A stretch of DNA of 64,000 nt from Asterias amurensis (lineage: Eukaryota; Echinodermata; Asteroidea; Forcipulatida; Asteriidae): NCBI RefSeq assembly GCF_032118995.1, contig NC_092651.1:12487285-12551284 (forward strand), written 5' to 3'. The position numbers and the translations under genes were made by a program. The notes below the pieces were generated by a model. That model had not been told where the DNA came from. It was given only the letters and a program-made list of their open reading frames with translations, and searched no databases. This document shows, piece after piece, positions 3,680 to 60,500 of the stretch; within the stretch, counting starts at the first letter, position 1; each line of letters opens with the position of its first letter.

Positions 3680-4674
3680 TCACATGGTGAACGAGTTTGA
3701 TTCCTCCTGATAACGACGTCCCAGCAGTTTGCGTACCCCTTCTCTGAATCGCTTATATTTGATTCCGTAGATGATTGGGTTGATGCATGAGTTGACTGCA
3801 ACCAGTGAGACCGAAATGACGTAGATGTTACCACCGAAGTCCAACGGCCAGCCAAGATTGAAGAGAAAGAAGACGATCTGGTTGGGAGCCCAGCAGACCA
3901 AGAACGAGATGAAGACAATCAGTAGCGTCTTGAAGGTGTTCCGTCGAGCGCGTCGGAGTGAGTTATCTCGTGTCTCGACGGCCGGTGGTGCTGTCGACGT
4001 CACCGACCCCGCGACCGTAACGACCCGGGGTGCCGTATCGACCGGGGCTACCGTAATGACCCGGGGTGCCACTGCGAGGCGCTGGACCCCCTTCTTCAAC
4101 ACGAACATGATGCTGGCGTATGCAAAAATCATGATGAACACCGGGAGAAAGAACTTGATGCATATGAAGATTGCTCCTATAAGCTGAGTCCTTCCTGAAG
4201 ACTCAAAGTAACACTTGCCTCCGCTGAAGACATGGACTACCGAAATGTACAATCCTTGCAAGAAGACTCCCATAATCCAGGAGCAACAGACCAACACGAT
4301 GACGACTCGACGGGTGAAAAGACCGCAGTATCTCAAGGGGAACACGATGGCGAAGAACCGCTCCAAAGTCACGGAGAGCAGGTTCAGCGTAGACGCGTTA
4401 AACGCACCCCATAGGAGTAAGTTCCCATCCAGATGTGGCAGAGAATCCAGTTGGCCGGAGTGTCCTGGAGCGTCTCCGGCACGGGGACGTTGCTCTCCAG
4501 TAATAGCACGACGGAGCCGAACAGGTCGATAACGGCCTGGTTGAAAATCAGTGCATTCGTCAGCGTGTGCATGAAGCTCACTTTATAAATGACCAGACAG
4601 ACGAGGGTGTTCCCCAGGATGCCAAACGATCCCACAATAGTTTTCACTATCCGTAGAAAAATAATATTCTCCAT
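3680..4674 (-). pseudogene. Rhodopsin-family GPCR, frameshifted duplicate copy
   Basis: Tandem copy of the intact receptor at 7811-8803, same orientation, single exon. The ATG at 4674 corresponds to that of the intact gene. The frame runs through TM1, TM2 and the start of TM3, then breaks near 4424-4426, where three Cs stand in place of four in the other copy. The remaining frame, from late TM3 through TM7, is intact to the stop at 3680. It keeps the ERF motif after TM3, the GGKCYFES loop cysteine, CWAP in TM6 and NPIIY in TM7. The C terminus has one extra codon (RRYQEES against RRQEEP). A second +1 change lies upstream of the ATG. With a single lesion and otherwise high identity, the inactivation is recent or a sequencing indel in a C run. 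As read, the product would be truncated after about 96 residues. Confidence 0.85.
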
Positions 4675-5024
4675 GATTGCAAAACAACGCAACAACGAAG
4701 GTTTCCCCTCCGATGACTGCCAGTGCCAACAAAAAATACGTTCTTTTTTATAAATAAGTATTTACTTTGCGTAGCTATAGCGATAATGCACAAAACAAAA
4801 TAATTGACAATACATCGCAAGATGATGGGGCTTGCTTTTCTAGTAAAGATGACAAACGAGGCTGCCTTGGGAAAAGTGTCCCGTCCCCGATCACCCGGAC
4901 AAGTCACGTGGGGAATATTATTTCACACGTGAAGTGTGATGGTTGAAATACTTAATGAGTCTCGCCTTGTATGGGAAAAAAATCAACCTCATGAGTTTTT
5001 GACACAAAGCTTCTGGGACCTTTT

Positions 5025-7810: not shown

Positions 7811-8803
7811 TCACATGGTGAACGAGTTTGGTTCCTCCTGACGACGTCCCAGCAGTTTGCGTACCCCTTCTCTGAATCGCTTATATTTGATTCCGTAGAT
7901 GATTGGGTTGATGCATGAGTTGACTGCAACCAGTGAGACCGAAATGACGTAGATGTTTCCACCGAAGTCCAACGGCCAGCCAAGATTGAAGAGAAAGAAG
8001 ACGATCTGGTTGGGAGCCCAGCAGACCAAGAACGAGATGAAGACAATCAATAGCGTCTTGAAGGTGTTCCGTCGAGCGCGCCGGAGTGAGTTATCTCGTG
8101 TCTCGACGGCCGGTGGTGCTGTCGACGTCACCGACCCCGCGACCGTGACGACCCGGGGTGCTGTATCGACCGGGGCTACCGTAATGACCCGGGGTGCCAC
8201 CGCGAGACGCTGGACCCCCTTCTTCAACACGAACATGATGCTGGCGTATGCAAAAATCATGATGAACACCGGGAGAAAGAACTTGATGCATATGAAGATT
8301 GCTCCTATAAGCTGAGTCCTTCCTGAAGACTCAAAGTAACACTTGCCTCCGCTGAAGACATGGACTACCGAAATGTACAATCCTTGCAAGAAGACTCCCA
8401 TAATCCAGGAGCAACAGACCAACACGATGACGACTCGACGGGTGAAAAGACCGCAGTACCTCAAGGGGAACACGATGGCGAAGAACCGCTCCAAAGTCAC
8501 GGAGAGCAGGTTCAGCGTAGACGCGTTAAACGCACCCCATAGGAGTAAGTTCCCCATCCAGATGTGGCAGAGAATCCAGTTGGCCGGAGTGTTCTGGAGC
8601 GTCTCCGGCACGGGGACGTTGCTCTCCAGTAAAAGCACGACGGAGCCGAACAGGTCGATAACGGCCTGGTTGAAAATCAGTGCATTCGTCAGCGTGTGCA
8701 TGAAGCTCACTTTATAAATGACCAGACAGACGAGGGTGTTCCCCAGGATGCCAAACGATCCCACAATAGTTTTCACTATCCGTAGAAAAATAATATTCTC
8801 CAT
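7811..8803 (-). CDS. Orphan rhodopsin-family GPCR, intact copy
   Basis: A 330-residue, intronless seven-helix receptor of class A, acting at the plasma membrane. The start is the first ATG at 8803; a TAA lies in frame upstream (before 8860), and a longer reading from a TTG is rejected. Hallmarks by residue from this ATG: GNTLV with N22 in TM1; FNQAVIDL with D50 in TM2; C79 before TM3; ERF (105-107) in place of DRY; loop-2 cysteine C155; CWAP (261-264) in TM6; NPIIY (299-303) in TM7. The third intracellular loop (about 194-247) holds two APRVxTVA repeats. The extracellular N terminus is very short (about 10 residues). The FNQAxxD version of TM2 is common in orphan echinoderm and other invertebrate receptors; the ligand cannot be told from sequence. 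Upstream are a CACGTG at 9033 and a TATA-like element at 9156. Confidence 0.9.
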   Translation of the reverse strand: MENIIFLRIVKTIVGSFGILGNTLVCLVIYKVSFMHTLTNALIFNQAVIDLFGSVVLLLESNVPVPETLQNTPANWILCHIWMGNLLLWGAFNASTLNLLSVTLERFFAIVFPLRYCGLFTRRVVIVLVCCSWIMGVFLQGLYISVVHVFSGGKCYFESSGRTQLIGAIFICIKFFLPVFIMIFAYASIMFVLKKGVQRLAVAPRVITVAPVDTAPRVVTVAGSVTSTAPPAVETRDNSLRRARRNTFKTLLIVFISFLVCWAPNQIVFFLFNLGWPLDFGGNIYVISVSLVAVNSCINPIIYGIKYKRFREGVRKLLGRRQEEPNSFTM

Positions 8804-9155
8804 GATTGCAAAACAACGCAACAACAAAGGCTCCCCTCCGATGACTGTCAGTGCCAACAAAAAATACGTTCTTTTTTATAAATAAGTATTTACTTTGCGT
8901 AGCTATAGCGATAATGCACAGGACAAAATAATTGACAATACATCGCAAGATGATGGGGCTTGCTTTTCTTGTGAAGATGACAAACGAGGCTGCCTTGGGA
9001 AAAGTGTCCCGTCCTCGATCACCCAGACAAGTCACGTGGGGAACATTATTTCACACGTGAAGTGTGATGGTTGAAATACTGAATGAGTCTCGCCTTGTAT
9101 GGGGGAAAAAAAATCAACCTCATGAGTTTTTGACACAAAGCTTCTGGGACCTTTT

Positions 9156-15996: not shown

Positions 15997-16211
15997 CAGG
16001 TTTTATGACTCCTATGTAAAGATAATAAAGTACGGAGTCTCACAGGACTGTTTACATAAACATCCATCAACCAAGTTCGGTTTGGTTTCCATTTACACAT
16101 GATTTATGTTACGGTAAAAATAGTAAAGGGTACCCGTTTGGTAATCACTCTGAGAACCATTGCCAATTATAGCTTTTGGTTAGAAGCATTCAGCAGCTTT
16201 ATTTATGGTAC

Positions 16212-16760
<549 letters not shown>

Positions 16761-16828
16761 AGCATTTATAAAGCGCACTAAATCTGTGGAACATTCAAAG
16801 GCGCTGGTCAAAGAACAAGAAGAAAACT

Positions 16829-17187
16829 TCACTCAATATCTGCAAAGGCTAATCTGAAGAGATGGGTTTTGAGAGGATGTTGGAATCGAGAGATGTCATG
16901 TGTGTCCTTGAGATGTTGAGACAGAGAGTTCCAGAGGCGTGGTGAAATGTTACTGAATGCCCTGTCTCCATAGCTGGATAAACGGGTCAGAGGAACATAG
17001 AGCATGCTGCCAGATGACCTCAGACCCGGCCTGGCACTACGGGGCCGAATCATGTTCTGTATGTAGGTAGGGGATAGTCCATGGAGAGCCTTAAATGTCA
17101 GAAGGATGATCTTGTATTGGATTCTGGAATGAATGGGTAACCAGTGGAGATTGTGTAAAATAGGAGAAATGTGTGAAGATATTTTGG
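16829..17187 (-). pseudogene. LINE reverse transcriptase, C-terminal fragment
   Basis: On the minus strand an open frame without an initiator encodes the typical C-terminal end of a non-LTR retrotransposon ORF2: ILHNLHWLPIHSRIQYKI, FKALHGLSPTYIQNM, then YGDRAFSNISPRLWNSL and FQHPLKTHLF before the stop at 16829. This LHWLP-FKALHG-YGDRAFS-LWN order is characteristic of CR1/L2-type LINEs. The polymerase core is missing, so this is a 5'-truncated dead copy. The short 3' UTR runs into the ATT microsatellite. Confidence 0.85.
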
Positions 17188-38500: not shown

Positions 38501-41500
38501 TCTAAACGCACACAATTTTGTGTGAGAAGGGTGTTTTTTCTTTCATTATTATCTCGCAACTTCGATGACCGATTGAGCTTAAATATTCACAGGTTTGTTA
38601 TTTTATGCATATGTTGAGATACAGCAAGTGAGAAGACTGATCTTTGACAATTACCAATAGTGTCCAGAGTCTTTAAGCAAGAAAGATGATTTGGAAATGT
38701 TAATGAGCATGCACGGTTAAACTAAAAACTTACATAAATAAGGTCATCTGCCAAATTGTATATTTTGAATTGAAACTTGACAGTAATATGAAAAACACAA
38801 ATTAGCACATAACACCGATGTAGATCAGATTTAATTAGAGGATTGGCCAACATAAAAACGACTGCCAAGTTATTTAGAATAACTGTTCTAACTTAATTCA
38901 TTTTGGGTTTTACCCATATAATGTACACCGACTGACTGATGTGTGTTAGCACTGTATACTTAGTACTTTCCCGAGTCCTGTGAAAAAATAAATTGCAGGC
39001 ATATATCTCGTGTGGGGTTCGAACCCGTTACCTTTGCAATTCTAAAGCTGTGTCATACCAACTAGACCACCGAGATTGCCCAGTAGTGAGAGGCAGTTCG
39101 AATCATATGTTTGAGCAGCAAGTAATGTAACGACTTAATAGCCTCTAGCTACTGGGCAATCTCGGTGGTCTAGTTGGTAAGACACCACTCTAGAACACCA
39201 AGGGTCGTGGGTTCGAATCCCGTGCGAGTAATATGCCTGTGATATTTTTTTTCACAGGACTCGGGAAAGTACTGAGTTAACGTTGCTAACACACAGGTGT
39301 ATGAGTAAAAAAAACAAAATTAATATGATTTAATAGATGTTCTTACTTAGGTGGCCATTTCTGGCGGCAGAATGCAGCGGTGTGCAGCCAGTGATGTCCG
39401 GTAGCGTCAGCTCGCCACCACGCTGTGATAACAGCTGCAGACACTCCAAGTGCCCATTGGCAGCTGCCTTGTGAAGTGAGGATGTACCAGTGCTGTCTTT
39501 GTCGCATGGGTTCTGAAAAAAATTACGGAAACCATTGGGTTCATTAAAAACAATAATTAGAATACATATTTTATAGCGCTAAATAGACTCCTAAATAGAT
39601 GTAGATGCTCAAAGCGATTCAAAGAGACGCAGTTCAAAAAGCTAACACCGGACACACTTTTTCTAAGGTAAGTAATCCAAGAACTCTTAAACATTAAAGG
39701 CAGTGGACACTATTGGTAACTACTCAAAATAATTATTAACATAAAACCTTACTTGATTACGAGTAATGGGAAGAGGTTGATGGTATAAAACATTGTGAGA
39801 AACGGCTGAAGTAATGCAGTTTTCGAGAAAGAAGTAATTTTGCACGAATTTGATTTTGAGGCCTCAGATTTAGAGTTTGAGGTCAAAAAATCAAATATCT
39901 GAAAGCAAACAACTTTGTATGACAAGGGTGTTTTTTATTTTACCATCTTGCAACTTCGACGACCGATTGAGCTCAAATTTTCACAGCTTTGTAATGGTAT
40001 ATGCACATGTTGAGATACACCAACTGTGAAGAGCAGTCTTTGAAAATTACCAGTAGTGTCCACTGCCTTTTACATCACTTATATTCTCAATTAGTAATAA
40101 TAATATTACTACTATTATTTCTACTAATATTTGTATTACTTTATACTCTATATCTTTCTAAAAATATTAACATAACTACTCTACACAAAAAATAATAGCA
40201 TTACTACTAGTAATACTATAGCTACTGATATTTGTATTACTTGTTTTTACAAATATATCTTTCTGGTACAAATCCAAGGGACCCACAAGTTTGTGTAATT
40301 TTTGTAAATTTGATGTTAATGCCAAAATGAATTTCCCATCGAGATAATACAGGGACTTGAAATTGAAAAACAACTTTTAAAAGCACCTGTGACCAACATG
40401 CAATTAGGATACCATAATTGTGGCGACGATTTAAAAAAAATAAAACAAAGTGATGACGATGGCACAAATAAAATTGTGACAAAATTGGAACTTATCCAAA
40501 AATTGTTGAGGGGGAAAAATGTTTCTGTTTCGGAATCTATGCTCTACTGCCAATATGAAAATGTGGTGGGAAAAAAAAACCTTTATCAGAAAAACTGAAC
40601 TTAAATAACCCGAAACAGAAAGATTGACACACTTCCTTTTTTAGGTACTTTTGGTGCAGATGAAATTGTGACAAAATATTGGAGCTTATTAAAAAAAAAA
40701 TTGAGGGGGGAAAACAGTTCTGTTTCGGAATCTAAAATCTTGGTTCTGACTTCTGTAAAGATGATTGTGAAAGATATTCTAAGGGATAAAACAACAATCT
40801 GAATCAAAAAAAATCTGAATTAAAAATAACCGAAACAGAAAGAATGAATAAATTTAGCTGTCAGCTGAGTTTTGTTTTTCAGAATCTTGATTCCTGGTTA
40901 CAAAAAGGAACGCAAATTTTGGTTGGATTTTATTTGTTCGATATTTCCAACAAGAGAGCAAGCAGCATGGACCTCAGACCAGTGTTTTTTGTCTTTCTAG
41001 TTCTGCAATTTCATCTCAAATTGGTCAGCACAGAAGGATTTGCAGAAGGTTCGTTACTAATTAGTTCTTTACTAAACACTCAAAGTAAAACTTAAATTAA
41101 ACTTAGAAGAGTGCAAACAGTGACAACTCTATAGAAAGTAAGATTTCACAATTTGAAAATATGAAATTAACTTTGTCAAAGTTACATTCAACTAAACAAT
41201 TTGTTGAGTCAGATACATTTAACTTTACGAGGAGCTGTCACTCACCGCACTTTATAATTTTGGTTTTTTTTTTTATGAGAGAGAGACCACCTAACATTGC
41301 AGGGTCTGGAGGCCACCACCTCAGGGTGAGGTCTACACTTACACACAAAATAATTGTTGGTACCGAGCAATGGAGAGCTGTTGATAGTATAAAGAAACGG
41401 CTCCCTCTGAAGTTAACATCATTTTTGAGGAAGAGGTAATTTCTCACTCAAACAATAAGGGCTTTATCTGCTGAAGACTTGAGTGGGTTTTCCTGTTATT

Positions 41501-44500
41501 TTCTCCCGACTCCGATGACCGATTGAGCCTAAATTTTCACAGGTTTGTTATTTTATATATAAGATGTGATACACGAAGTGTGGGACTTGGACAATACTGT
41601 TTACCGAAAGTGTGTAATGGCTTTAATCCAACTGTTTTTTAATTTTTTTTTTATAAGTAGCAAATATAACTGCTGTTATATTCTTATGGTTTTCAATCGG
41701 TGTATTGGTAAAACCAAAATTAGTAATCTTTATCTTCGATGCAAATTTAACATCTATTATATCGTTGCGGTACCCGCTGCCAACACATAGGAGTCGAATT
41801 GCCTCTAGCTACCGGACAATCTCGGTAGTCTAGTTGGTAAGACAATGCTCTAGAATTGCAAGGGTCGTAGGTTCGAATCCCAGCCGAGTACGATGCCTGT
41901 GATATTTTGATACATGAATCAGGAAAGTACTGAGTATACAGTGCTAACACACATCAGTGTATGGGTAAAACCAAAAATAATATTCCTATACTTTTTTTTT
42001 ATACATAGGGCCTCCATTGGATAGCAAAGGGCGTGAATTCATCTTTGCAATCCCCGGGAGCTCAAATTCAATACCGGTCATCGAAGTGACGAGCGAATCA
42101 CATGGAGTGACCGAGATCAGCGTGGACCAGCCAGCTTTCGAACGCTCCTACCAACAGACAATCAGCTACGGTGAGGTGGCATCCTTTAGGCTGACATCCG
42201 AGGCAGTAGCGAGGGGAGCTGGGTTCTTTGACGGGGCGGTTGTAGTCTACGCCAGTAAAGATGTCAGCGTCACCTGCGTTGTTGACACCGTCGCAGGTAC
42301 CTACGCCGATGGATTTCTGGCTATTCCGGTGGACGCTCTCGACAAAGAATATTACGTTGTGACGTATGATACAGGAGAAACTTTGAATGAGTTCGGACAT
42401 CATCAAGAACACCTGTCCAAGTTCATTATTACAGCAACACAAGATAACACGCGTGTGTCTGTGGAGCTCCGAACAGCCGCTACCTTTAATACACTCTACC
42501 AGGCTGGAGAGACAATTGAGTTTGAACTCCGCTGGAAGGAGTCGGCCCAGATAGAGAGTTCCAGTGATCTCACTGGGTCAAAGGTGACAGCGTCGCGAGC
42601 GGTGGCATTGGTAGCCGGCAATGACTGCTCTGATACCCTGCTAGTTTTCCGTTACTGCTCTTATTTGGTGGAGCAGTTGCCCCCCGTTTCAACCTGGGGG
42701 CGCTCTTTCGTTCTTGCCAACATGGACGGTCGCCCTGGCCTTGTTAACACTGTCGATGTCTGGAGAATCCTTGCGCCTTTCCCCAACACAACTCTGACAT
42801 TCACAGACAATCACGTCACACGTGTCACTGTCTATGACCCAATCTGGTACGACTACAAATTGAAAACGAGCAAGATTGTCATGTTAACGGCAGACAGGGC
42901 AGTCATGGTAGTCCAATATATTGCAGGTGGAAAGTCGAGTGCCAGTGTTCTCACTGTGCCGACAGAGCAGTTCACAGACAGCGCAACTGCTGCCACCACC
43001 ACAACAGCAGGCAGTGAAGTCAAAGAATACATCCTGGTATATCGCTGTGCTGAGGAATCCTCTCTCCTGGTCAATGAGGAACCGCTGAGAAATCTTAAAG
43101 ATTCTGAACGTCTTCGGGAAGAAACCTACTGTGCGGTAACCCTTGGGAATGAGTTCCAGCAAGATGTATGGATAGTCAACACAACAGACCCAGGGAACCA
43201 CCTTTCCTTGCAGATTCAGCATTTTAAGACCAGTAAAATTCTCAGCGCTTTTCCAGCGGGAATGATGCTCAACCGGCAAAGCTCCATGACCTCCAGAGAC
43301 GAAGACAAAGCTGGGCAATCCTCCCTTGAAGCATCAACACCAGCTTCATCCTCAGGTGCACATCAAACCTCACAGCAACACAAACATGGTAAATGCACTT
43401 AAAAAACTTTTCCATGCAGTGTTGCCGCTAGACCAAGTTTGGTGGTGGGCTCTTTAGATCCAATTAAAGGCAGTGGATACTATTGGTAATTACTCAAAAT
43501 AATTATTAGCATAAAACCTTACTTGGTGACGAGTAATGGGGAGAGGTTGATAGTACTTTGTGAGAAACAGCTCCCTCTGAAGCGACGTAGTTTTCAAGAA
43601 AGAAGCAATTTTCCACGAATTTGATTTTGAGACCTCAGATTTAGAATTTGAGGTCTCGAAAAAGCACATAACTTTGTGTGACAAGGTTTTTTTTCTTCTT
43701 TCTTTGATCATTATCTTGCAACTTCGAGGACCGATTGAGCTCAAATTTTCACAGGTTTGTTATTTTATGCATATTTTGAGATACAACAAGTGGGAAGACT
43801 GGTCTTTGACAATTTAAGTCCACCTATATGTTTAGATATGGGGCCATCGTTACAGAGAAGTGCAATCTTGAAGAAATGTGTGCTGTTGCTCAGAGTGCCG
43901 GGCGAAACTTGTTAGTTCTGGGCAGGCTCACCCGGCACCGCCCATTGTGGCTAAAACACTGTTTCTATGCATTTAGTTTGTATAGAGTTGCTGAAAGAAA
44001 TGAATGGAAACATAACAAAACCACTCCACCATTGGGAAACTACTCTCACAGACGACATTCAAAAGTGCATCATCAATTACTCATCTGATGATGACTAGAG
44101 CACAAGCTAGTTGAAACAAAAAGACCAATTAAGAACTCACTCCACGGAAGTGAAGTTTATAACGAGAAGTCCCCTCGATCCACTAAAGCAAAAGTAGCAG
44201 TCCCAGCATATTTCTACCTATCGCCCTGAAAAGCATTACAGTTCTTTTGAGATTCTCCCGAATTCTGAAAAATTACTCTGCGGTAGAAGAATATAAAGCT
44301 AGACAATTTCTCAAAAGAACAATATCTACCAGCAAGTAGACACACACATGGTGTTACCGCAAACCAAATATATACTGATATCCCACCATTCAATGCCTCA
44401 AATCCCATATCAATGACAAACATTTCTTGTTCTTCTCTCTCAAATCTTCAGAGCCTACTTCCGGAGATATTTTCAGATCGACTGTTGCTCCTGACACACG

Positions 44501-47500
44501 TTCAGGTGTTCAAATGCTAACTGCCTTTGAAATCTGCTTACTAGGAGTGTGTGGCACCCTGGTCGTTGTTTTAATCCCTTTTTTGATGTGCCATGTAAAA
44601 GCCTGTAATCGGTAGGTGTTCAATTGCTTCAAAATATTCATTTCATAGTCTGTTGTTTTTTTCCTTAAAAGCAAAGTACTGTATCATGTACATGTTCTTT
44701 GGTTTTCGAAATTTATCGATTGTTTGAATCCGTAACATTTAATGTGATAAGACTGACATCTGAAAATTTCATTTCAAAAGGTGGTTGTGTTACACCTCAC
44801 ATATATAATGATTTATTTGGAATAGCGTCCCACTTCAACTCAGAAACGCAGATACTTGTTCCAATTTCAAAAATCACCTCAAAACATATCTAATATTCAG
44901 TGAAGTCATTAATTGACTTTCTTTCAAATCAAAATAGAAAAATTCATTAAGAGCTGTGCTTTAAAGTGTCAAATTTTGAAACGTGTCAAATCTTGAAAGG
45001 CAGAGCAGTTTTTCTCTGCTAAGGGGCACTTTCTATTGAGAATATGTAAGTTTGTATTGCAACTTTGAAGAGGTCACCAGCAGCAAAAGCACAGGGCAAA
45101 ACAGCAACTGCTGTGGGCGCCATGGGTTAATACAACGATCCATTAGGCTCCGCCCACGGCGCACGTGTGAGCAAGAACACGTGAGCCTCTCCAATGCCAT
45201 TCTGCACAACTCTGCCGCGCGCACCAAGCATACACGTACACATGTCGGACCTTATAGTGTCAGACTTTTGGTTGTGCAATGGGTTGTGATTGGTCAATAT
45301 GCAATGGGGCGGAGCTTAATGGAACGGTCTATTCGAGGACTAATAGCTTGTTTTGTTTACAATCTTGTTTTGTTTCGATGTGTTTTATCATGCAGCCGTA
45401 AACGGCAAAGGCGTAACTTCAGGGTTCAAGAGAGAGCAGTTAGATTCTCAGTCTCTCCTCGGTTGGTGCGTGAACCCAAGACACCAAAACTCAGAGGGGG
45501 ACGTGGAGGAGGTGAACCCTGGACACCAAGCCTCAGTGGGGGATGTGGAGGCGGTGAACCCTGGACACCAAACCTCAGAGGGGGACGTGGAGGAGGTGAA
45601 CCCATGACACCAAGCCACATAGTGGGACGTGGAGGTGAACAGGAGACACCACACCCCAGTGGGGTACGACATGGAGGTGAACCCGTTACACCAAATGAGG
45701 GATGTGTAGGAGGTACTCCATCAGAGCTCCTCATCTACGAGTCAATTGGAAATGACACCCCCATTGAGCATTCATACTGCACATCTGCAAGAGGCAAGAT
45801 GCTTGAGGACCAGGGTGGTCATCAGACTGAAAACTCTAACAGATACAGTACGCTTAGCCTGGGCGATGAGGTGCAGCATATCTACTATAAAGCAGGAAAG
45901 TGAAATCCAATAACAACCAAGGCTAGGGAGTAGATCCCTAGGGGGAAGGTATCCCCCTACTTGGATGGATTTCACAAAGGGTTAAGACAAGTCCTATCTT
46001 GAGTTCAGCCGAGTTAGGACTAGCCTTTAGTTTTTAAAAACTCCTAGACATTGCCAGTGTTCTCACTGTGCCGACAGAGCAGTTCACAGACAGCGCATTT
46101 GCTGCCACCACCACAACTGACAACAGCAGGCAGTGAAGTCAAAGAATACACCCTGGTATAACGCTGTGCTGAGGAATCCTCTCTCCTGGTCAATGAGAAA
46201 CCGCTGAGTAATCTTAAAGATTCTGAACGTCTTCGGGAAGAAACCTACAATGCGGTAACCCTCAGCAATGAGTTCCAGCAAGATGTATGGATAGTCAACA
46301 CAACAGACCCAGGGAACCACCTTTCCTTGCAGATTCAGCACTTTAAGACGAGTAAAATTCTCAGCGCTTTTCCAGCGGGGTTAAGACTAGTCCTATCTTG
46401 AGTTCAGCCAAGTTAGAACCAGCCTTTAGTTTTTAAAAACTCCTTAACAGTCCCAGGAATAGTCCCAAGTTAGGACTATCTTTGTGAAATCGTCCTCTGG
46501 GCTAGATTTATTAAATTGAATTGAATAGAATATGATATTAACAAACTATGAATCGCTTTGTTCAAGGGCCCCGAGTACCTTATTTGTAGATACAAGCGCT
46601 AAATATGAGACTCTGGTATTATTTTTATTCTTGATATGATTATACTCTGTAATGATTTAAATATGAGGAACAATGTAATAAAATACCTTGAAATTTTGGG
46701 TCTGTGATTGCGAAGGATATTTCTCGAGGGGGGGGGGGGGCACAATTTGTTTTCTAGGAAGCAATTCTGGCCAATTAAAAGGGCTGATTCAAATTGTTGT
46801 TTCCATTTGCATTTCTCCTAAACAATATAATTTTCAATGCAATTTTTTTGTACTCAGTGCAAGTAAGTGGTAAAAAACAAAAATTTGTCTGCAGTAAATG
46901 GACAAAGTATTAGTTATGTTATTAAAATAATTGCATTCAAGCCATCGGCTCTTTCAGTAAACAGTATTGTTCAAGTCCCACACTTCGTGTATCACAACAT
47001 AAAATAACAAACCTGTAAAAAATTTTGGCTCAATCGGTCATCGGAGTCGGGAGAACATAATGGGAAAACCCACCCTTGGTTTCCGCACATTTCGCCATGT
47101 CATGACATGTGTTTAAAATAAATCCGCAATTCCCGCTATCGAGAATTGATATTGTTTTAATGTTTTCTCGAAAAGTAAAGCATTTCATGGAATAATATTT
47201 CAAGAGAAGTCTTTCACCATAACCTTCTGTAAACCCTGTAATTTATTAGTAAATCTGTGATTTTTTTTTTTTTTTCTTTGCCGAAAGTGTATAATGGCTT
47301 TAAAGAAATGCTACATTTTGCTTCGGTTATTTGCAATCTGAAAGTCCAGATTTCAAATGGGAGGGTGGACAGGGGTTGGGGGTACAAAGCCTATGCAGCC
47401 ACTACACTGTTCATGTACAGGTCTATTCATACCAGAAAGATACATACAAGACTCAGATAGTATACACCTGAACTGCTATGTACAATATAAATAATTTATG

Positions 47501-57500: not shown

Positions 57501-60500
57501 CACTATTCTTAGAAGAATTATTCTAATAATAGCGCCCTCTAACTTAAGTTTGTACACAGTTTGCCAAAATGAGGGACAGAATCTCCTGACACACTAGTAT
57601 TGTTTTTTAATTGACAGTTCAAACAAGAAATTTGAATTGAATGTATTGAATCTGTAGGCTAATGTTTTCTGCCTACAGAGTGACCAGGGTGCTTGTGCAA
57701 TTCCTGTACTGGCACTGCAGGCCAAAGGCATTTATGCTTGCTGACTGCTTCACACGGCGGTGTTTTTGTGGCTGTAACCAATAACTGATTCGGTCTTTTG
57801 CCAGTGATTAATAACCAATGGCCAATTTTAACCGAAACAGCTATTGGTAACGACCGCGAAAACACACCTCTGGACGCAGTTTCGCACCTCAGATTGGATA
57901 CGCGGCAGGGCAAAAACACAAAATCAAATTAATATCTACCTGGAAAGATCTCTGGCGGAGCAAACTGCATTTCTTCCTGATGTCCTTCAGAACGAAGAAA
58001 CTCTTCCCGGCACAGACCGGAATGTTGTTGATCGAGATGGAGCCGAACTTCTGCCGAGTCTTGCCACGGATCTTGGCCACGGAGCAGTGTTTGTAGCCGT
58101 CTACCTTCCAGCTGTGAGCAAACTCCATGGCCGACCGACTCGGGAGAAACTGTCTCGTCGTACGGTCATCTTTGCGGTTGCCGTTCATGTTACCGCAGAG
58201 GCCACAAAGTGCCCCCGCGAATGTTTTCGGTGCGGACACTTCAATGTCATTCTTTTTAGACCAGCGGATGATGACGCCACGGTTGGTGGTGATGGTGATG
58301 CCGTCTTCATCTAAGGATGTGTTTGTTCGGGTGATCAGAACGTTCATTGGAGCGGCGTGAGTGTACGGCAGCTCAACAGGAACACCAGTAACCTGGGGGG
58401 TCAATGTTAAACACAGATGTAACATGAGCGTTAAAGGCACTGGACATGTTTGTTTGCTGTCAAAGACCAGTATTCTCACTTGGTTTGTCCCAACATACAC
58501 GTAAAATAACAAATCTGCAAACATTTGGACTCAATTGATCATCGAAGTTGCAAGAGAATAAAAAAAAAACCCACCCTTGTTGAACAAAACTTGTTGTGCT
58601 TTCAGATGCCTAAAAAGGGCTTCAGGCCTGGTCTTTTTTAAAGTATTAAAATATTTCAGTGAGAAATTACCTATTCCTTTTTTAAAGTATTAAAATATTT
58701 CAGTGAGAAATTACCTATTCCTAAAGAACTACATGTACACTACTTCAAAAGGAGTTTCTCACAATGTTTTATACTTTCAAAAACTCTTCATTGCTTTATT
58801 TACCTTAACCATCCCGTCGTAGTTAACTTCCACCTCGACACAGTCAAGCCGTAAGAACACGGCACGCCGATAGAACTTCTTCTTGTTGGCCTCATATTGA
58901 ACCTCAATGCTGAACTGGCTGCCGACGCAGTCTTGACTTAAGACGTAGCGGCAGTTTCCTGTGTTGTCAAATTTGTTGCCGTCGTAAGTTAGATACTTCC
59001 CACGGGTGGACACAGAGCACGTCTTGGATTCTGCAGAACGAAAATAAGTTGTTTCAATTTTCAAATTTGTGACTATTTTTTATTTGTAGCTTTGAATTTG
59101 TTTGGATAAACCTAGAAAGAAAATGAACACACAGAAACAGGAGGATAAAAATAGCAAACAAGAAAGAAAAACTGCACATAATTATCCAAGGGTAGCCCAG
59201 GGCCCAATTTCGTAGAGCTGCTTAGCATAACAATTTGCTAAGCATAAAATTTCTTCCTTGATAAAAACAGGATTACCAACCAAATTCCAATTGTTGCATA
59301 TTGCTTGTTACTGGTACTCAGCTGTTGTTTGCTTATCCTGAAAATCACGTGGAAATTAATTGGTTGGTAATCCTGTTTTTATCAAGGAAGAAATTTCATG
59401 CTAAGCAAATTTTTATGCTACGCAGCTCTATGAAATTGGGCCCAGATGGTCAGGTTGCAGCGATAAGCTTTATTCTTCCTTACAGATTCTCCTGCTCATG
59501 CGTCCGCTGGTTGTTATGGTCAACAGGCATTTATAAAGCATGACGCCCCAAAGCTATGGAACAACTTCACTTGCCCGTATCAATACACCAAAGTACATGT
59601 TACTCTCTGATTTTGTTTAAAGACCGTTGGACACTACTGGTAATTGTCTTCTCACTTGGTGTATCTCAACATATGCATATAAGCAAACCTGTGAAAAAAA
59701 ACACTTTAGTCACACGAACTTGTGTGCTTTCATAATGGTTGATTTTGAGACCTCAAATTCTTAATCTGAGGTCTCAAAATCAAATTTGTGGAAAATTACT
59801 TCTTTCTCGAAAACTGCATTACTTCAGAGGGAGCTGTTTCTCACAGTGTTTTATACTATCAACCTCTCCCCATTACTCGTTACCAAGTAAGGTTTTATGC
59901 TAATAATTATTTTGAGTAATTACCAATAGTGTCCACTGCCTTTAACAATCCAATTGAAAAGGATCATGTCTGTTAAGTTTTATGAATTCATTTATGGATT
60001 ATTTTAGTCCGTTTTTAATTTATTTATAATAAAACTAGCATGTGAAAATCTCATTTCAAAAGGTGGTCACGTTTTTCAACCTCTCCCATTACTCGCTTCC
60101 AAGTAAAGTTTTATGCTAATAATTATTTTGAGTAATTACCAATAGTGTCTGCCTTCAAGAAAGTCTTGAAAACCCATTTTCTTTTCAACAATTTAACAGT
60201 TACCTGGTAAACACTCTGGACAGCAAGCCCCAGGGGCCTCAAACCTCTGCTCATTCTAAAAGTAACACACAAATACAATACAATTACAATGAAGAAAAAT
60301 TATTTTGACAAGTGGTACTTTATAATGACAACTTCAATAGACATTAAATAATAGTAATAATATTTCATTCTCATAGCGCATTACATCAAAAAATAATCTC
60401 AATGCACCGTACATAATTATTACAGATACTGGTAATAAAATACAATGATAGTTTAAAATACATTAAAAGCACATTAAAACATTGGTACAACCAAAATTTA

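Follow-up and report, generated by a model that had tools for sequence, protein, structure and literature searches.

A predicted membrane-anchored IgGFc-type protein with tyrosine motifs in its tail, encoded in the genome of the sea star Asterias amurensis

The IgGFc_binding domain of Pfam (PF17517) is named after FCGBP, which the excerpted text of PMC9354016 describes as a secreted mucus protein joining one immunoglobulin G (IgG) Fc-binding domain to 13 VWD domains. In invertebrates, IgGFc-binding proteins are tied by the available excerpts to mucus and adhesion, with examples from the footprints of Asterias rubens, from oyster and limpet adhesives, and from an adhesion-related transcript module of Pisaster (PMC6337334, PMC7333891, PMC10320347). 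We uncovered in the sea star Asterias amurensis a plus-strand gene, at positions 40967-45903 of a 64,000-nucleotide window (the whole stretch of DNA analysed, C4:12487285-12551284), which codes for a protein that has a PF17517-type domain in common with FCGBP and, unlike it, lacks VWD domains and carries a predicted membrane anchor. The excerpts retrieved by combining IgGFc-binding with sea star, echinoderm and coelomocyte topics describe no membrane-anchored IgGFc receptor with a tyrosine-bearing tail, and a placozoan preprint retrieved for FCGBP does not mention that name in the version consulted; a figure of sponge receptors, by its excerpted text, names IgGFc-binding and TM (transmembrane) among its domains (PMC8242945), and earlier drawings of anchored IgGFc proteins may therefore well exist. 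The second point of comparison is offered by the vertebrate receptors with an immunoreceptor tyrosine-based inhibitory motif (ITIM), such as LILRB and the Siglecs, with which the sea-star protein has in common a type I single-pass layout and a consensus-fitting motif; unlike them, it has an ectodomain of a different family and one motif only. In the paper excerpted among those retrieved for ITIMs in invertebrates or echinoderms, the ITIM text concerned vertebrate LILRBs.

The gene comprises four exons, all with GT/AG borders (phases 0/1, 1/1, 1/2 and 2/0), which splice into a single frame of 709 residues. Exon 1 (40967-41048) codes for a signal peptide, MDLRPVFFVFLVLQFHLKLVS..., with a hydropathy of 1.55 at residue 3, and ends in a phase-1 donor. 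Exon 2 (42009-43388, an open 473-codon frame) holds the entire IgGFc-type ectodomain and the beginning of a stalk; exon 3 (44452-44611) supplies the end of the stalk, the membrane helix and the start of the stop-transfer stretch; and exon 4 (45396-45903), which codes for the cytoplasmic tail and the stop codon, outscores every other phase-2 candidate beyond exon 3 (29.8 bits, versus 9.8 for the runner-up). A possible polyadenylation signal, AATAAA, follows at 46677-46682. This frame bears out the original prediction, made from the DNA letters, that in-phase exons yield a signal peptide, an IgGFc-binding domain, one helix and a 174-residue tail, and we regard the predicted anchored IgGFc-type gene as confirmed. 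The genome search placed the PF17517 match at 42308-43144 (158.3 bits), and in the spliced protein it spans residues 128-406, where its score of 161.7 bits far exceeds the curated cut-off of 25.6 and the match covers profile positions 1-277 of 297. The earlier claim that VWD is absent likewise holds, with no second Pfam family, VWD included, detected at E 1 in the 709-residue protein. When three VWD queries were run against the 1185 frames of at least 30 codons in the window, their sole match was a minus-strand frame at 57892-58530 (43.8 bits), a VWD-domain exon of another, opposite-strand gene.

The strongest 19-residue hydropathy peak of the protein, 2.71, begins at residue 515 and corresponds to the predicted membrane helix ICLLGVCGTLVVVLIPFLM (residues 515-533, 44532-44588). 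It is preceded by a stalk made up to 34% of Ser, Thr and Pro and followed by a basic inner flank, with 11 Lys/Arg versus one Asp/Glu in residues 534-565. The family to which the gene belongs speaks for the same arrangement. In the genome searched (23 contigs, 491,506,623 bases), PF17517 occurs at 17 places, of which six form what we call class B: the window gene on C4, and paralogues on C1, C6, C7 (C7a at 3.88 Mb and C7b at 12.32 Mb) and C8 (1.53 Mb). The class B layout, namely a domain exon entered in phase 1 and then a helix that either shares the frame of the domain or lies in an exon entered in phase 1 and left in phase 2, is that of the window gene. A single 865-codon open frame of the C1 paralogue takes in its domain, stalk and helix as well as a tail of 332 residues, and in the C8:1.53 Mb paralogue the domain and helix lie within one 509-codon frame; because these two genes hold domain and helix together in this way, the anchored layout of the window protein is corroborated. 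It is further corroborated by the phase-1 acceptor present just upstream of the domain in all six class B genes (chosen by position and pyrimidine tract, with a further passing acceptor nearby, in another or the same phase, in C7b, C7a, C8 and C1), together with phase-matched helix-exon candidates in three paralogues. These candidates, entered in phase 1 downstream of the domain, number two in C7b, one in C6 and two, mutually overlapping, in C7a; the weaker one in C7b reaches 2.41 and indicates that chance candidates do occur. The best candidates of C7b, C6 and C7a leave in phase 2 (TAT|GTGAGT, ATC|GTAAGT and CTC|GTAAGT), as does the window exon (TCG|GTAGGT), and exit phase was not a criterion of the paralogue scan; C7b also has a weaker phase-0 donor, and window exon 3 offers donors in phases 0, 1 and 2, from which the retained one was picked with exon 4 in mind. 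We count this agreement of phases as good, though not conclusive, evidence for a genuine exon 3.

Controls on noncoding DNA point in the same direction. A comparable helix exon (hydropathy of at least 2.5, a passing acceptor, phase 1 and a donor after the helix) was found in none of 64 overlapping 2-kb windows taken on both strands from the noncoding DNA of this window and of three other stretches, and hence the pair of exons was likewise found in 0/64; the window has one helix exon, and all nine of its splice variants have a downstream open exon of at least 100 codons. Codon use was scored with a table derived from seven frames, of which five belong to IgGFc relatives, and the noncoding draws were stripped of stop codons beforehand. 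By this measure exon 2 is coding-like, with 0/2000 noncoding draws scoring as high, and the 62-codon end of exon 4, which bears the tyrosines, scores best of six frames in its own frame and above noncoding stretches (P 0.0005).

The other eleven PF17517 places constitute class A, which shares the genome and the domain with the window gene. One lies at C11:3180128-3181018, three at C17:6224964-6259486 and seven at C8:7421407-7659137; they were assigned by position and frame length, and four of the eleven (L014, L015, L016 and L017) were scanned for domains. The frames run to 1143-1210 codons, the last C8 copy having only 199. All four scanned members combine IgGFc with AMOP, VWD, MUC4-type C8-3 and Sushi domains in one open frame, and unlike the window gene they hold the signal peptide and domain in one open frame (judged by eye), contain VWD, have a short inner end and stand in tandem arrays. 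The window protein lacks AMOP, VWD and Sushi by Pfam and hence falls outside the class A pattern. A terminal membrane helix was seen by eye in three of the four (not in L016); thus, while the helix and basic flank of the window protein stand, an anchor is not peculiar to this gene, being present even in paralogues with VWD. The class B paralogues resemble it in the phase-1 acceptor, the helix or helix-exon candidate and the presence of PF17517 alone in the scanned frame, and their ectodomains are 23-27% identical to it over the full alignment and 29-33% in local matches. A midpoint-rooted tree built from nine domains of the sea star and six of bacteria unites all six of class B with support of 90/95, below the 95/80 mark of the tool, and three of class A with 100/100. 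Cysteines C234/C244 and C374/C402 of the window protein align, by eye, with those of C1, C8:1.53 Mb and C6.

The module itself extends well beyond animals with antibodies. To our knowledge, sea stars have no antibodies and no IgG. Moreover, six of 39 candidate bacterial stretches were confirmed as relatives of the domain, matching a C1-led query at 24-30%; they come from four Bacteroidota, one gammaproteobacterial bin and one unassigned bacterial bin, and the three that were scanned display C-type lectin, PKD, SprB or Por-type sorting domains. In light of these associations an adhesion-type ligand is favoured over IgG, and given the presence of the module in bacterial proteins, the name IgGFc-binding applies to one vertebrate member rather than to the module. 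Our best reading is that the module is ancient and independent of antibodies. An AlphaFold model of the window protein, usable to about residue 320, is mostly beta, and fold comparisons made with it gave weak matches.

The predicted cytoplasmic tail spans residues 536-709 (174 residues). As the original prediction had stated, it contains LIYESI (residues 653-658, with Y655; 45730-45747), which fits the ITIM pattern and also the YxxPhi pattern, and, 36 residues on, YSTL (Y691; 45844-45855), which is at most a YxxPhi motif since it lacks the ITIM residue at position -2. Within this family, each gene seems to have a tail of its own kind. The 332-residue tail of C1 is rich in tyrosine, with six YxxPhi motifs where shuffles average 2.25 (P 0.014) and two YxxM motifs (P 0.022); its YIGL and YMPL, nine residues apart, agree with a loose pattern of the immunoreceptor tyrosine-based activation motif (ITAM; P 0.016) and miss the canonical ITAM spacing. 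All motif P values are uncorrected, eight patterns having been tested on two tails. The proposed family-specific recognition system accordingly fits only loosely: family membership stands, and the tails differ from one another. As for partners, C18 carries SH2 exons (13903699-13906002) and then, without a change of strand, phosphatase exons (13916232-13917620), in the order typical of SHP-type phosphatases; among the matches listed, the phosphatase pieces cover only profile positions 39-85 and 126-177 of 234, in what is a candidate gene and not an assembled one. By this exon order, the means for ITIM signalling may exist in the animal. About 94 of the roughly 150 tyrosine-phosphatase matches listed (a hand count) fall on C13, which suggests a local expansion there.

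Hence, we propose that the gene codes for a type I single-pass receptor built on an IgGFc module, which is probably endocytic and/or coupled to SH2 proteins, a reading that we hold to be reasonably probable. The gene structure, domain, anchor, motifs and family layout are read directly from the DNA; beyond these, we infer that the protein is a receptor rather than a passive anchor and that its tyrosines matter, and the ligand class, phosphorylation, uptake or inhibition, and cell type are put forward in the same conditional sense. The signal peptide would deliver the protein to the membrane, where the all-beta IgGFc-type module, common to bacterial secreted proteins and FCGBP, would bind a ligand outside the cell, which is probably a glycoprotein or else the surface of microbes or mucus. 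The Ser/Thr/Pro-rich stalk and the single helix would provide the anchor, and the basic stop-transfer stretch would leave the tail inside. There, YESI and YSTL would as YxxPhi motifs most likely serve clathrin-type uptake, and Y655, if phosphorylated, could recruit an SH2 protein, for example a phosphatase of the SHP type.

Several observations limit or count against this proposal, some bearing on the gene model and others on the tail. The exon borders are not unique, alternative in-frame combinations being present: exon 3 donors at 44594 and 44604 are compatible with acceptors at 45229, 45041 or 45071 without a change of tail frame, although such joins lengthen the start of the tail and leave its tyrosine-bearing end unaffected. 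Nor is the start codon fixed, the frame of exon 1 being open upstream to 40790 with an additional ATG. The codon use of exon 1 is uninformative (P 0.38 versus noncoding DNA); that of exon 3 scores highest among the six frames but does not set it apart from noncoding DNA (P 0.067); and for the opening 32 codons of exon 4, likewise inseparable (P 0.22), another frame scores higher. The middle of the tail, rich in Gly, Pro and Thr, is formed by a minisatellite of four 42-nt (14-codon) copies at 45470-45635, whose coding score proves nothing because it is high in four of the six frames. The branch of the window domain in the tree, at 1.93 the longest from its own genome, renders its position unsure and could mean relaxed constraint. 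In 5000 shuffles of the tail, 13.6% contain an ITIM match (P 0.136) and 17.6% two or more YxxPhi motifs (P 0.176), both within chance. Paralogues with the same tail, for which the original prediction had suggested a search, are absent from the genome searched, in which the tail has no relative elsewhere, including in the other class B genes. Furthermore, the C1 tail has no ITIM, the C8:1.53 Mb protein, should its frame end where the open frame does, would have an inner part of only some 22 residues, and the tail candidate of C6 is Pro-rich and without tyrosine.

These points bear on the choice between a receptor and an anchored adhesion or mucus-scaffold protein, in which the module would hold mucus, matrix or a surface glycoprotein and the tail would be a passive or cytoskeletal spacer without tyrosine signalling. 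This alternative, a serious one that we nonetheless consider doubtful, draws on the mucus and adhesion links of the invertebrate proteins in the excerpts cited above (PMC6337334, PMC7333891, PMC10320347), on the four scanned members of class A, which join the domain to AMOP, VWD, MUC4-type C8-3 and Sushi in the manner of surface mucins, on the chance-level motif counts of the window tail and on the very short inner end of C8:1.53 Mb. It is countered by the coding-like and frame-specific character of the tail end that holds both tyrosines, and by the excess of YxxPhi and YxxM motifs in the C1 tail over shuffles.

A strictly inhibitory immune receptor, in which Y655 as an ITIM would recruit an SHP-type phosphatase and dampen the activation of coelomocytes, overlaps with the broader endocytic or SH2-coupled receptor that we prefer, such that the likelihoods we attach to the two need not be exclusive. 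The match of LIYESI to the consensus and the SHP-type exon order on C18 agree with it, but the frequency of such matches in shuffled tails, the want of a second ITIM, the lack of any paralogue with the same tail and the ITIM-free tail of C1 make it unlikely. Of the inhibitory or endocytic layout named in the original prediction, the anchor, the cytoplasmic tail and the motifs are thus present, and the inhibitory part hangs on a single motif of a kind that is not rare in shuffled tails.

A soluble form is improbable. It would be a secreted single-domain protein made by use of exon 2 without exon 3, and intron retention could give rise to it, as reading through the donor at 43388 (43389-43402) adds GKCT and a stop; yet chance alone often places a stop shortly behind a donor, and the helix-exon candidates with equal phases in three paralogues argue for splicing onward to a helix. 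That the gene is a once-functional copy losing constraint is the least probable of these alternatives, for its long branch, the broken exon-2 fragment adjoining it and the minisatellite in its tail are set against an intact 1380-nt exon with coding-like codon use, intact splice sites and frame, and the cysteines aligned by eye with those of three paralogues.

On the receptor reading, one may further conceive of a small sea-star family of paired receptors that keep one gene layout and exchange their tails, some inhibitory as in the window gene and others activating or scaffold-like as in C1 (YIGL-x9-YMPL, YxxM), a proposal that we rate as a long shot. If true, such a paired-receptor system would sense by a part that belongs neither to the Ig domains nor to the C-type lectins. 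More generally, the invertebrate IgGFc-binding proteins appear in the literature excerpts as mucus or adhesive proteins and are named for a ligand missing in sea stars; with a membrane-anchored branch that bears tyrosine motifs inside the cell, part of this annotation would become testable as coelomocyte receptor biology, and there would be a case to compare when asking how motifs for inhibition or endocytosis joined new recognition modules outside the vertebrates.

The 3' flank of the gene contains, at 46052-46379 on the plus strand, a partial copy of exon 2, which is 94% identical to it and is broken by a 7-base insertion and in-frame stops; it is a possible source for gene conversion. On either side of this copy lies a 79-base stretch (45979-46057 and 46378-46456), and the two share 90% identity. 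Elsewhere in the window, the minus strand bears two nearly identical copies of a rhodopsin-type G-protein-coupled receptor, that at 7814-8875 being an intact frame of 354 codons and that at 3683-4761 being split between frames. Finally, a trinucleotide microsatellite of about 550-600 bases lies at 16183-16832, with several frames open through it.

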